The position numbers and the translations under genes are program-made. From positions 1,116,001 through 1,180,000 of the forward strand of contig NZ_AP019367.1 of NCBI RefSeq assembly GCF_003966955.1: a stretch of DNA of 64,000 nt, in the 5' to 3' direction. The notes beneath the pieces were generated by a model. That model did no database searches. It was not told the DNA's origin and saw only the letters and a program-made list of their open reading frames with translations. This DNA comes from Parolsenella catena (lineage in GTDB: Bacteria > Actinomycetota > Coriobacteriia > Coriobacteriales > Atopobiaceae). This document shows positions 37,571-41,890 of the stretch, in pieces; positions within the stretch are counted from its first letter, which is position 1, and each line of letters begins with the position of its first letter.

Positions 37571-37596
37571 AATACCTACTTTTCCGCTAGGGTATT
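37571..37596. promoter_or_regulatory. Inverted repeat AATACC-N14-GGTATT overlapping the metY promoter
   Basis: Perfect six-base arms flank a 14-base centre; the right arm overlaps the first bases of the -35 hexamer. This is a possible activator/repressor site, though it does not match the MET-box seen before the two downstream genes. Confidence 0.4.
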
Positions 37597-37623
37597 GACG
37601 AGGCCAAGACGCGGTCGTATAAA
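37595..37623 (+). promoter_or_regulatory. Sigma-70-type promoter of the metY leader
   Basis: TTGACG, an exact 17-base spacer and TATAAA, close to the consensus. Transcription would begin near 37630, giving a short 5' end before the leader peptide start at 37664. It is the best promoter in the window. Confidence 0.75.
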
Positions 37624-37663
37624 TTCATCAACACGAAGCGACGGACCCAAGGAGGTGCCCAGA

Positions 37664-37750
37664 ATGACCACGACGACCATGATGATGTGCATGCGAATGC
37701 TGAGCTCCCGGGCACCACAGGAGTCCGCCGGCGCAAACGTCGATTGGTAG
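37664..37750 (+). CDS. Met/Thr/Cys-rich leader peptide of metY, 28 aa
   Basis: Tiny reading frame with a strong Shine-Dalgarno (AAGGAGGTG, six bases before the ATG; the same CCCAAGGAGG context precedes metY). The peptide starts MTTTTMMMCMRM: six Met, four Thr and one Cys in the first 12 codons, then LSSRAPQESAGANVDW. Such runs of the amino acid made by the pathway mark attenuator leader peptides, where a ribosome stalled for charged Met-tRNA (or Cys-, Thr-tRNA) decides the RNA fold. Thr and Met share the homoserine branch point. The codons for Leu13 to Ala17 are part of the antiterminator pairing described separately. Confidence 0.75.
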   Translation: MTTTTMMMCMRMLSSRAPQESAGANVDW

Positions 37751-37820
37751 CGACATCGACGAGGCGCGCACGGAAGTCTCCGACTTGCGCCCGGGAGCCC
37801 TGAGCTGCCGGGCGCTTTTT
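37704..37820 (+). promoter_or_regulatory. Transcription attenuator before metY (antiterminator and terminator arms)
   Basis: GCTCCCGGGC at 37704-37713, inside the leader peptide frame, is exactly complementary to GCCCGGGAGC at 37789-37798. That second segment is also the left arm of the terminator (37787-37815, followed by TTTTT to 37820), so the two folds exclude each other. A further hairpin (37766-37790, with AAGTC/GACTT) also uses bases 37787-37790. A ribosome waiting in the Met run (37679-37699) would leave 37704-37713 free to pair with 37789-37798 and block the terminator; fast translation would favour termination. The base pairing is seen; the mechanism is inferred. Confidence 0.65.
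37787..37820 (+). terminator. Attenuator terminator
   Basis: Arms GCGCCCGG (37787-37794) and CCGGGCGC (37808-37815), extended inside by AGC/GCT past one G-G mismatch, then TTTTT. It ends 70 bases before the metY start codon, the usual place of a leader terminator. Confidence 0.8.
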
Positions 37821-37889: not shown

Positions 37890-39203
37890 ATGTCCGACAT
37901 CACCCCCGAGGTCGAGAAGACCTTCCACTTCGAGACCCTGCAGCTTCACGTCGGCCAGGAGAGCGCCGACCCCGCCACCGACTCGCGCGCCGTGCCCATC
38001 TACCAGACCACGAGCTACGTCTTCCGCAACTCCCAGCACGGCGCCGACCGCTTTGGCCTCGCTGACGCCGGCAACATCTACGGCCGCCTGACCAACTCCA
38101 CGCAGGGCGTCTTCGAGGACCGCATCGCCGCGCTCGAGGGTGGCTCGGCCGGCCTTGCCGTTGCCTCCGGCGCCGCCGCCATCACCTACGCCATCCAGGC
38201 GCTCGCCAAGGCCGGCGACCACGTCGTGGCCCAGAAGACCATCTATGGCGGCTCCTACAACCTGCTCGAGCACACGCTCTCCCAGTTCGGCATCGAGACC
38301 ACCTTCGTTGACGCCCACAACCTCGACGAGGTCGAGGGTGCCATCAAGGACAACACGACGCTCGTCTACCTCGAGACCCTCGGCAACCCCAACGCCGACA
38401 TCCCCAACATCGACGCCATCTCGGAGATTGCCCACAAGCACGGCCTGCCCGTCGTCGTGGACAACACGTTCGGCACCCCCTACCTGTTCCGTCCGCTCGA
38501 GCACGGCGCCAACGTCGTCGTCCACTCCGCCACCAAGTTCATCGGCGGCCACGGCACCTCGCTGGGCGGCGTCATCGTCGACGGCGGCAACTTTGACTGG
38601 AAGGCCTCCGACAAGTACCCGCAGATCGCCGAGCCCAACCCCTCCTACCACGGCATCTCCTTCGCCGACGCCTGTGGCCCGGCCGCGTTCGTGACCTACA
38701 TCCGCGCCATCCTGCTGCGCGACGAGGGCGCCTGCATCTCCCCGTTCAACGCGTTTTTGCTGCTCCAGGGCACCGAGACCCTCTCGCTGCGCCTCGATCG
38801 CCACGCCGAGAACACCAAGAAGGTCGTGGAGTACCTCGCCAACAACCCGCTCGTCGAGAAGGTCAACCACCCGAGCCTGCCCGACCACCCCGATCACGAG
38901 CTGTACGAGAAGTACTTCCCCAACGGCGGCGCCTCGATCTTCACGTTCGAGATCAAGGGTGGCAAGGACGCTGCCTGGAAGTTCATCGACAACCTGCAGC
39001 TGTTCTCGCTGCTCGCCAACGTCGCTGACGTCAAGAGCCTCGTGATCCACCCGGCCAGCACCACGCACTCCCAGCTCACCGACGCCGAGCTCGCCAACGT
39101 GGGCATCACGCAGTCCACGATTCGCCTCTCCATCGGCACTGAGCACATCGACGACATCATCGCCGACCTCGAGCGCGGCTTCGCGGCCGTCAAGCAGGGC
39201 TAG
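37890..39203 (+). CDS. metY: O-acetylhomoserine sulfhydrylase (MetY), 437 aa
   Basis: PLP enzyme that makes homocysteine from O-acetylhomoserine and sulfide. FHFETLQLHVGQESADPATDSRAVPIYQTTSYVF is the typical N-terminus, the PLP lysine is in VVHSATKFIGGHGTSLGG, and NNPLVEKVNHPSL plus SLGG-like C-terminal VIHPASTTHSQL are conserved. Length matches the long MetY group (about 430) rather than MetB/MetC (about 380). ATG 37890 has AAGGAGG eight bases upstream. Preceded by a Met-rich leader/attenuator and followed by two MetE-like genes, so it is the entry step of a methionine module. Confidence 0.95.
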   Translation: MSDITPEVEKTFHFETLQLHVGQESADPATDSRAVPIYQTTSYVFRNSQHGADRFGLADAGNIYGRLTNSTQGVFEDRIAALEGGSAGLAVASGAAAITYAIQALAKAGDHVVAQKTIYGGSYNLLEHTLSQFGIETTFVDAHNLDEVEGAIKDNTTLVYLETLGNPNADIPNIDAISEIAHKHGLPVVVDNTFGTPYLFRPLEHGANVVVHSATKFIGGHGTSLGGVIVDGGNFDWKASDKYPQIAEPNPSYHGISFADACGPAAFVTYIRAILLRDEGACISPFNAFLLLQGTETLSLRLDRHAENTKKVVEYLANNPLVEKVNHPSLPDHPDHELYEKYFPNGGASIFTFEIKGGKDAAWKFIDNLQLFSLLANVADVKSLVIHPASTTHSQLTDAELANVGITQSTIRLSIGTEHIDDIIADLERGFAAVKQG

Positions 39204-39410: not shown

Positions 39411-40535
39411 ATGACAGACAAGCTCAAGGGCCCGTTCCGCTACGACATCGTGGGCAGCTTCCTGCGCCCGCAGGCCATCCACGAGGCGCGCGCCCAGCAC
39501 GCCGCCGGCAAGATCTCGTTCGAGCAGCTCCGCGAGGTCGAGGACGCCGAGGTCGCCAAGCTCATCGAGAAGGAGAAGGCCGCAGGGCTGCATGCCGTGA
39601 CCGACGGCGAGTTCCGCCGCCGCTGGTGGCACCTCGACTGGCTCGCTGGCTTCAACGGCATCAAGGTCTACGACTTCAAGACCGCCGGCTTCGGCATCGA
39701 GAAGGTCATGCAGGGCACCTACGTGGACTCCCCGCTCTCCTTTGACCCCAACCACCCCTTCCTCGACGGCTTCCGCCGCACGCAGAGGCTTGCCGGCGAC
39801 ACGCCCGTCAAGCAGACCATCGCCGGCCCCAACATGGTGACGCTCGACTCCGTCGTGCTCTCCCAGCAGTACGCCGCCAACCCCGTCTACGCCAACCTCG
39901 ACGAGCTGCGCCACGACCTCGCCAAGACCTACCAGGATGCCATCCGCGCCTTCCACGACGCCGGCTGCCGCTACCTGCAGCTCGACGACACGAGCTGGGG
40001 CGCGCTGTTCTCCGGCCGCTTCCGCGACAAGATCGAGGCCTGCGGCTATGACCCCGACGAGCTCATCGACGTCTTTGGCGACATCACGGACGAGGCGCTC
40101 GAGAACAGGCCCGAGGACATGGTCATCACGACCCACATGTGCAAGGGCAACTTCATGAGCCACTGGCTCTACGAGGGCACCTACGAGACCATCGCCCGCC
40201 GCCTGCTGGGCATCCGCGGCTTCGATGGCTTCTTCCTCGAGTACGACGACGAGCGCTCCGGCGACTTCGAGCCACTCAAGCACCTGCCGCAAGACACCGA
40301 CCAGCGCGTGGTCCTCGGCCTCGTGACGACCAAGAAGCCCGAGCTCGAGGATGCCGAGCGCATCCGCGAGCGCATCGCCGAGGCCGCCAAGATCGTGCCG
40401 CTCGAGCGCCTGTGCCTCTCCCCGCAGTGCGGCTTCTCCTCCACCGAGGAGGGCAACTCCGTGGCCGAGGAGGACCAGTGGAGAAAGCTCGCCCTCGTCC
40501 GCGAGGTAGCCGAGTCCGTCTGGGACGACGCCTAG
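39411..40535 (+). CDS. MetE C-terminal-domain methyltransferase (YxjG/YxjH type), 374 aa
   Basis: Cobalamin-independent methionine synthase family, only the catalytic barrel. It begins PFRYDIVGSFLRP, has VTDGEFRRRWWHLDW, and the zinc ligands are readable as HMCKGN (His, Cys), FFLEYDDER (Glu) and LCLSPQCGFSS (Cys). Short proteins of this group are thought to methylate homocysteine with a donor other than the polyglutamate folate of full MetE; the donor here is unknown. ATG 39411 follows AGAGGA. It has its own MET-box, and a paralogue lies directly downstream. Confidence 0.9.
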   Translation: MTDKLKGPFRYDIVGSFLRPQAIHEARAQHAAGKISFEQLREVEDAEVAKLIEKEKAAGLHAVTDGEFRRRWWHLDWLAGFNGIKVYDFKTAGFGIEKVMQGTYVDSPLSFDPNHPFLDGFRRTQRLAGDTPVKQTIAGPNMVTLDSVVLSQQYAANPVYANLDELRHDLAKTYQDAIRAFHDAGCRYLQLDDTSWGALFSGRFRDKIEACGYDPDELIDVFGDITDEALENRPEDMVITTHMCKGNFMSHWLYEGTYETIARRLLGIRGFDGFFLEYDDERSGDFEPLKHLPQDTDQRVVLGLVTTKKPELEDAERIRERIAEAAKIVPLERLCLSPQCGFSSTEEGNSVAEEDQWRKLALVREVAESVWDDA

Positions 40536-40665: not shown

Positions 40666-40756
40666 ATTTGCATACATGATGCGTAGTACCGCATAGCTCG
40701 CGTTCGTGAAATACTATTTCCCAGCAGAGAACAAGGTATTCGAGAAGGAGAGTTCC

Positions 40757-41890
40757 ATGCCCTACAAGCACAACGCCCCGTTCCGCTATGACGTCGTCGG
40801 CAGCTTCCTGCGCCCTGACGTCCTCAAGCAGGCCCGCGCCGACCACGCCGCCGGAGTCATCGACGACGCCGCCCTCACGGTGGTCGAAAACGAGGCCATC
40901 CGCGACCTCGTCGCCAAGCAGAAGGCCGCCGGCCTCCACGTCATCACCGACGGCGAGTTCCGTCGCAGCTACTGGCACCTCGACTTCATGTGGGGCCTGC
41001 AGGGCATCGAGCGCCGCACGAGCCGCACCGGCTATATGTTCCACGACGAGGAGACCACCGCTGACACCGCCGTCGTCACGGGCAAGATCTCCGGCGAGAA
41101 CCACCCGTTCGTGGAGCACTTCAAGTTCGTGAAGGCGCTCGAGGAGGACGGCCAGGTTGCCCGCCAGACCATCCCCGCCCCCATCCAGACCTTCTCCGAG
41201 GTCACGCTCGACCGCTGCGACGGCCAGATCGAGAGCCTGCGCTCCGTCTACCCTGACGACGAGGCCCTCATCGCTGACATCGCCGCCGCCTACCGCACCG
41301 TCATCGCAGACCTCTACGCCGCCGGCTGCCGCTCCATCCAGTTCGACGACTGCACCTGGGGCATCTACTGCGACACGGACTTCGTGGCCAAGACCGGCAT
41401 GAAGCCCGTCGACATCCAGAAGGTCTCCGAGCTGGGCGTTCGCCTCAACAACCTCGCCATCGAGGGCAAGCCCGACGACCTCGTGATCAACACGCACGTC
41501 TGCCGCGGCAACTACCACTCCACCTACGCCTTCGCCGGCGGCTATGACCCCGTCGCGCCCTACCTGTTCGCCAACGAGAACGTCGATGCCTTCTACCTCG
41601 AGTTCGACACGCCTCGTGCCGGCACCTTCGAGCCGCTCAAGTACGTGGCCCCCGGCAAGAAGGTCGTGCTTGGCCTCGTGACGTCCAAGCAGCCCGGCCT
41701 CGAGGACGAGGAGCTGCTCGAGAAGCGCATCAACGAGGCGGCCAAGTACGTGCCGCTCGAGAACCTCTGCCTCTCCCCGCAGTGCGGCTTTGCCTCCTGC
41801 GAGTGCGGCAACAAGCTCACCGAGGACGAGCAGTGGGCCAAGGTCGCGCTCGTCCGCCGCGTGGCCGAGAAGGTCTGGGGCGAGGCGTAA
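40757..41890 (+). CDS. MetE C-terminal-domain methyltransferase, second copy, 377 aa
   Basis: Paralogue of the gene before it (same opening PFRYDVVGSFLRPD, ITDGEFRRSYWHLDF, zinc ligands in HVCRGN, FYLEFDTPRAGTFEPLK, LCLSPQCGFAS). The two differ widely in the middle, so the duplication is old and the substrates may differ (for example homocysteine versus a different thiol or methyl donor). ATG 40757 has GAAGGAGAG upstream. It is the last gene of the methionine module and ends at a very strong terminator. Confidence 0.9.
   Translation: MPYKHNAPFRYDVVGSFLRPDVLKQARADHAAGVIDDAALTVVENEAIRDLVAKQKAAGLHVITDGEFRRSYWHLDFMWGLQGIERRTSRTGYMFHDEETTADTAVVTGKISGENHPFVEHFKFVKALEEDGQVARQTIPAPIQTFSEVTLDRCDGQIESLRSVYPDDEALIADIAAAYRTVIADLYAAGCRSIQFDDCTWGIYCDTDFVAKTGMKPVDIQKVSELGVRLNNLAIEGKPDDLVINTHVCRGNYHSTYAFAGGYDPVAPYLFANENVDAFYLEFDTPRAGTFEPLKYVAPGKKVVLGLVTSKQPGLEDEELLEKRINEAAKYVPLENLCLSPQCGFASCECGNKLTEDEQWAKVALVRRVAEKVWGEA

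Follow-up and report, generated by a model that had tools for sequence, protein, structure and literature searches.

Genes and leader elements at the metY locus

The DNA analysed here, a stretch of 64,000 nucleotides from Parolsenella catena that we call the window, carries metY, the gene for an O-acetylhomoserine sulfhydrylase (37890-39203; TIGR01326, 631 bits; PF01053). It is followed by a gene for a MetE-type homocysteine methyltransferase (39411-40535; NF005085; start codon chosen by eye), which is probably part of the metY operon. These two genes and, unless stated otherwise, the parts of the metY leader region described below are on the forward strand. A second MetE-type homocysteine methyltransferase gene, likewise assigned to NF005085, lies further downstream at 40706-41890. 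The MetY of the window matches the proteins of Collinsella and Slackia isoflavoniconvertens at about 84-87%, compared with 79% or less for most MetY of its own family outside the genus, and horizontal transfer of the gene is possible.

The region upstream of metY starts with a promoter, TTGACG-N17-TATAAA (37595-37623, with TTGACG at 37595-37600 and TATAAA at 37618-37623), which is kept in the sister genome G001. A Shine-Dalgarno (SD) sequence, AAGGAGG (37649-37655), is situated 8 nt upstream of the ATG at 37664 that opens a small reading frame of 28 codons plus stop (37664-37750), encoding MTTTTMMMCMRMLSSRAPQESAGANVDW*, a member of the leader family described below. Codons 6-10 of this leader read Met-Met-Met-Cys-Met (37679-37693) and are followed by Arg11-Met12, specified by the codon pair CGA-ATG (37694-37699). 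Still within the leader frame lies arm A, GCTCCCGGGC (37704-37713), the 5' half of an antiterminator. It is exactly complementary over 10 bp to arm B, GCCCGGGAGC (37789-37798), the duplex having a dG of -25.3. Arm B serves both as the 3' half of the antiterminator and as the 5' half of an intrinsic terminator (37787-37820), which consists of the stem GCGCCCGG/CCGGGCGC (37787-37815; dG -23.7, with a loop of 13 nt) and the run TTTTT (37816-37820) and is also kept in G001. An earlier note, made from the DNA letters of the window, had described the promoter, the SD sequence, the 28-codon frame, the 10-bp pairing and the terminator with its five Ts, and inspection of the sequence and its fold places all of them where that note had put them. 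A simple consensus scan of the window lists neither the leader promoter, for which it requires a final T that TATAAA lacks, nor the terminator, since its 13-nt loop exceeds the maximum of 8 that the scan allows.

Three further elements accompany this arrangement. Between the two arms, around the leader stop codon, the hairpin CGTCGAT/ATCGACG (37738-37761) is predicted, possibly a pause hairpin. GGTGCCC (37654-37660) might act in an anti-antiterminator pairing with GGGCACC (37710-37716). Finally, an unstranded inverted repeat, AATACC...GGTATT (37571-37596), which is kept in G001, overlaps the -35 hexamer and may be a repressor operator.

In G001 the leader peptide is 96% identical to that of the window. 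From the SD sequence through arm A the two genomes differ by one base inserted before the ATG, with no substitution up to 37717. The sequence 3' of the terminator has diverged, and there is more change outside than inside the stretch from the SD sequence to arm A. The stem of the hairpin at 37738-37761 is kept in G001 and made longer, with base changes. The leader of the window matches no Rfam, Pfam or NCBIfam model, the peptide queries being very short and the sensitivity of the HMM searches correspondingly low.

A family of leaders with an invariant CGA-ATG codon pair

We searched the upstream regions of metY orthologues for the peptide pattern R-M-x-x-S-R, allowing any Arg codon. SD-led small frames with the RM core were found in Collinsella, Slackia isoflavoniconvertens, Baileyella and many Lachnospiraceae. 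DNA-pattern searches then detected it in the window's family, in other Clostridia and in Lachnospiraceae, where 24 of 298 genomes gave matches. Background matches inside genes (e.g., L120, L121, L140, L141, L172 and L177) were set aside and identical copies removed, leaving 71 leaders with a downstream gene, of which 57 nonredundant ones were profiled. A direct search with the leader peptide in 60 relatives recovered only G001, the core being too short for E-values. A CGA-ATG leader is absent from about half (41) of the 80 metY loci inspected. The family thus extends to Lachnospiraceae and other Clostridia and is not confined to Coriobacteriia, which goes beyond what the earlier note had considered.

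The core shared by these leaders is an in-frame CGA-ATG, a spacer of 5 nt and the arm CTCYCGG. Both the invariant codon pair and its fixed 5-nt distance to the antiterminator arm are new relative to the earlier note; the distance is supported mainly by the metY-anchored finds, because it is built into the RMxxSR search pattern. A pyrimidine occupies the first spacer position in 55 of 57 leaders, and the other four bases vary. CGAATG is the most frequent hexamer in the metY upstream regions, occurring in 38 of 80 nonredundant regions, compared with 0-9 for other Arg-ATG hexamers. The Arg codon preceding the ATG is CGA in all 71 leaders; a single AGA match (L043) is on the opposite strand and not before metY, and was counted as background. 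The metY genes at these loci, by comparison, use CGA for 14 of their 516 Arg codons (2.7%).

The residues preceding the pair vary. Met or Cys codons are found at positions -3 to -1 before CGA in 74-81% of the 57 leaders, and in Clostridia Cys codons outnumber Met codons immediately before CGA, the typical form being MCC-RM-[LF]-x-SRA followed by a T-tailed terminator that uses the same arm B. Among the leaders collected, a Thr run was not seen beyond the window's genus. It occurs only in the window and in G001, while the other leaders have Met and Cys codons and lack it, and we therefore reject the joint sensing of threonine that the earlier note had suggested. In the comparison with relatives that had been proposed as a check, the arms show compensatory changes, the Met run is variable and it is the CGA-ATG pair that is invariant. 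One metY upstream region (L106) has a leader rich in Cys and Met (WCMCCCMMCLC) and a terminator, and lacks the CGA-ATG core.

In most Clostridia, as in the window, the 3' half of a terminator and then a T run come after arm B. No T-tailed terminator was seen in several Coriobacteriia that have both arms (L044-L046, L045, L015, L018, L024 and L142), so that the output of the leader may be different there, involving Rho or translation.

The genes downstream of the leaders were identified by reading the proteins, not by HMM. Besides metY, they encode MetQ-type methionine-binding lipoproteins (L168, L198, L200, L203 and L204), cystine-type binding proteins (L101, L104, L169 and L179), amino-acid ABC permeases (L136 and L194), an ABC ATPase (L142), CysK (L164) and two other Cys/Met PLP enzymes (L171 and L201). 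Two genes, at L182 (a short-chain dehydrogenase) and L187, have no obvious role in sulfur metabolism. Judged from these sequences, the targets together look like a sulfur amino-acid regulon.

The two arms covary

The pairing of the two arms is matched leader by leader. The fit of arm A to its own downstream region is 27.55, whereas swapping arms between leaders gives 24.54 +/- 0.32 with a maximum of 25.85 (5000 permutations). When only the inner six columns are used to anchor arm B, 85.9% of the cells in the outer columns +18 to +22 are paired, compared with 76.8 +/- 1.5% (maximum 82.6%) after permutation; both tests ignore the relatedness of the sequences. Examples of covarying arms are CTCCCGAGCA/TGCTCGGGAG (L114) and CTCCCGGATG/CATCCGGGAG (L142). 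At the level of sequence, the conservation in G001, the reading frame in relatives and the fit of the arms confirm that the element is more than a chance arrangement.

Simulated folding places the switch at the codon pair

We folded the window transcript up to arm B with a ribosome masking positions -12 to +11, where CGA is +1 to +3 and ATG +4 to +6. The core of arm A starts at +12. The helicase position of the ribosome is usually placed near +11, so the core of the arm would lie just beyond it. For ribosomes at Thr5 and onwards through CGA in the P site, the antiterminator forms in the simulation with P=1.00. With ATG12 in the P site the value is 0.07, and it is 0 at the next codons tested. 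A mask at codon 20 partially restores the antiterminator (P 0.83). With the ribosome at the stop codon it falls to 0.01, and ViennaRNA predicts that arm A pairs with the SD region instead, by way of the GGTGCCC element described above.

Across 55 leaders the mean antiterminator probability is 0.98 with CGA in the P site, 0.80 with ATG in the P site and 0 thereafter, the zeros at later ribosome positions being partly trivial because the scored bases are masked there. Setting the reach of the ribosome to +14 or +9 shifts the switch in these leaders by about one codon. In this model the geometry would thus place the switch at the CGA-ATG pair, and a stall with either CGA or ATG in the P site would be compatible with it. 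At equilibrium the complete terminator always wins in the window, so that control has to be kinetic, like that of other attenuators.

Decoding of the CGA codon

The window genome has tRNA-Arg genes with the anticodons ACG, CCG, TCT and CCT. A tRNA-Arg(TCG) was not found among the tRNA genes read, a set that is incomplete for class II tRNAs, the Arg tRNAs being class I. This leaves tRNA-Arg(ICG) to read CGA by means of an I:A pair, which Curran (1995; cited in PMC10454642) is said to have reported to be inefficient. In yeast, a P-site CGA makes the decoding step that follows slower and less stable (PMC6301793). The CGA codon probably makes the ATG that follows it unusually sensitive to the supply of Met-tRNA, a role that we infer.

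A second leader type has the same codon pair

Other metY genes are preceded by a different small frame, which has the motif RxN[FY]RxGRM and in some cases ends in Met-stop. It was found at L265-L286, L288 and L291-L312 (not L271, L287, L289, L290 or L301) and also at L022, L071, L079 and L110. One such leader precedes metQ (L283/L309), and nearly all others precede metY. In a search open to any Arg codon, the last Arg codon of the motif is CGA in 24 of 24 leader reads, a few loci being repeated among them, while three non-leader matches in the same search have CGG or AGG. By contrast, codon choice varies freely at the preceding Arg positions of the motif. Most leaders of this second type have no T-tailed terminator in the stretch read. 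Two metY leaders (L069 and L111) combine the motifs of the window type and of the second type. The CGA-ATG codon pair is the element common to both.

At L022 a single metY has two tandem leaders upstream of it, first a Met/Cys-rich frame that has a strong T-tailed terminator and then a leader of the second type adjoining the gene.

A probable methionine- and cysteine-tuned attenuator

The earlier note had proposed an attenuator with a leader peptide, a terminator and an antiterminator before metY, sensing methionine and possibly cysteine, and the comparison with relatives supports this well. As expected of an attenuator, there is at the sequence level a short leader frame with its own ribosome binding site (the SD sequence AAGGAGG), whose frame is conserved in relatives. 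Codons for the end products are present, since most leaders contain Met or Cys codons and the targets are Met/Cys genes. The antiterminator and terminator are mutually exclusive and covary, the terminator being not evident in several Coriobacteriia. The element is most likely a transcription attenuator resembling those of trp and his, tuned to methionine and cysteine and varied around the invariant CGA-ATG pair, as far as can be judged from DNA sequences.

Sequence comparison provides the leader, its frame, the arms with their covariation, the spacing, the invariance of CGA, the targets and the tRNA set; on these we base the following model, in which the stalling of the ribosome and the part played by CGA are inferred. 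The ribosome would follow RNA polymerase and translate the leader of 28 codons. A shortage of Met-tRNA (or Cys-tRNA) would make it wait within MMMCM-R-M, at the latest when CGA (Arg11) occupies the P site and ATG (Met12) the A site. CGA would be decoded solely by tRNA-Arg(ICG) via a slow inosine-adenine wobble. A waiting ribosome would leave arm A just outside, free to pair with arm B once this is made, and the A:B pairing would remove the 5' half of the terminator, so that metY is transcribed. When Met- and Cys-tRNA are plentiful, the ribosome would cover arm A, arm B would join the terminator and transcription would stop near 37820. The direction of the response, readthrough at low methionine or cysteine, is suggested by the anatomy of the leader and the analogy with trp.

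A bolder version, which we put forward tentatively and lean slightly against, sees in CGA-AUG a dedicated sensor. With the I:A wobble in its P site the ribosome would pause until Met-tRNA arrives, and it might also slip by +1 onto UGY and so read the balance of methionine and cysteine. The device would be common to the two leader types and to Actinomycetota and Bacillota, and the RxN[FY]RxGRM type would be an undescribed arrest peptide. The codon reached by such a slip is a Cys codon, UGY, in 55 of 57 leaders. The +1 frame has no conserved stop or peptide; a frameshift product was discarded as a candidate, and the frameshift is speculation. The leaders offer a clean natural test of P-site CGA as a regulatory device, because the adjacent Arg codons vary freely and CGA does not.

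Relation to known leader peptides

In gut Firmicutes and Actinobacteria, the control of methionine and cysteine genes is usually attributed to SAM riboswitches, T-boxes or repressors. The leaders described here form a conserved, uncurated leader-peptide family that appears to control such genes, including those for methionine uptake. The trp and his attenuators and the Corynebacterium ilvB-II uORF (PMC10272879) share with it an SD-led leader, codons for the end product, an antiterminator arm inside the leader and a T-run terminator before a biosynthetic gene. Unlike these, the present family has Met and Cys codons, an invariant CGA-ATG at a fixed distance from arm A, a stop codon that is usually well past arm A, members in two phyla, and both transport and synthesis genes as targets.

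For Actinobacteria, the predictions of Seliverstov et al. (2005) comprise Trp, Cys and Leu/Ilv leaders as well as ileS T-boxes, and other amino-acid pathways showed no conserved structures (PMC1262725). Its Cys leaders, in Mycobacterium, P. acnes and B. longum, are likewise short frames with Cys codons upstream of sulfur genes. They have their Cys run near the stop, without a conserved hairpin or terminator, and the text describes no RM core for them, whereas here the Met and Cys codons stand before CGA-ATG, with a covarying antiterminator and a terminator downstream. The single Cys codon of the window leader is 19 codons upstream of the stop, and its assignment to those Cys leaders was rejected for want of a Cys run near the stop. 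The uORFC-8-2 motif of Rhodobacterales cysS (PMC8632094) is a Cys-codon attenuator proposed, like ours, from comparison. It differs in bacterial class and in preceding a cysteinyl-tRNA synthetase gene, and the passages on it mention no CGA-ATG core. A terminator-based survey noted that, until its own His case in bacilli, leader peptides had been shown nowhere beyond Proteobacteria and Actinobacteria (PMC2965389). The Xanthomonas met 5'UTR is methionine-responsive, a leader peptide not being mentioned (PMC6230763). We found no Met/Cys leader of this kind in the open-access papers searched, and an earlier description elsewhere is possible.

Alternative explanations

The main rival, chiefly on account of the second leader type, is nascent-peptide arrest, in which the ribosome would stall after ...R-M on a bound metabolite (methionine, SAM, cysteine or homocysteine). 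With Met12 in the P site, the stalled ribosome would cover arm A, and abundance of the metabolite would lead to the terminator. Every leader of either type has RM, and L069 and L111 carry both motifs. Moreover, the peptide motif RxN[FY]RxGRM, sometimes ending in Met-stop, is reminiscent of known arrest peptides; in TnaC-like metabolite-sensing arrest peptides too the conserved peptide can end at the stop (PMC8429421). The leader of the window, in contrast to TnaC, is of the codon-rich type, and arrest in the second type is putative. The residues before RM in the window type vary and are mainly Met and Cys. A peptide mechanism needs no CGA, yet CGA is invariant while the other Arg codons of the same peptides vary. 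We consider arrest unlikely as the explanation for the window leader. To our knowledge, TnaC-like arrest peptides and the second leader type share no motif.

If the reading frame were incidental, the element could be a T-box or a riboswitch that binds a metabolite, which could account for some positions (CGAATG and CTCYCG) being fixed at the nucleotide level. Such an explanation would leave open why the core lies in the frame of the SD-led ORF 40 times, compared with 3 and 0 times in the other frames, a count that also bears out the conservation of the leader frame on which the earlier note had made its reading depend. The length of the ORF before the core changes by whole codons, the simple pairing of the two arms is the sole conserved helix, and neither the window nor 20 relatives have an Rfam match. 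We hold this explanation to be very improbable; identity with a SAM riboswitch or a T-box was specifically rejected, no Rfam covariance model being matched.

Least probable is control of metY by a promoter repressor alone, the leader RNA being unimportant: the inverted repeat overlapping the -35 region, the TAGGT/ACCTA-like hexamers that are frequent upstream of metY in relatives and the Rrf2-like gene adjoining metY in L013 (judged by eye) would fit it, but it leaves the conserved frame, the codon choice, the spacing and the covarying arms unexplained. A repressor and attenuation can coexist.
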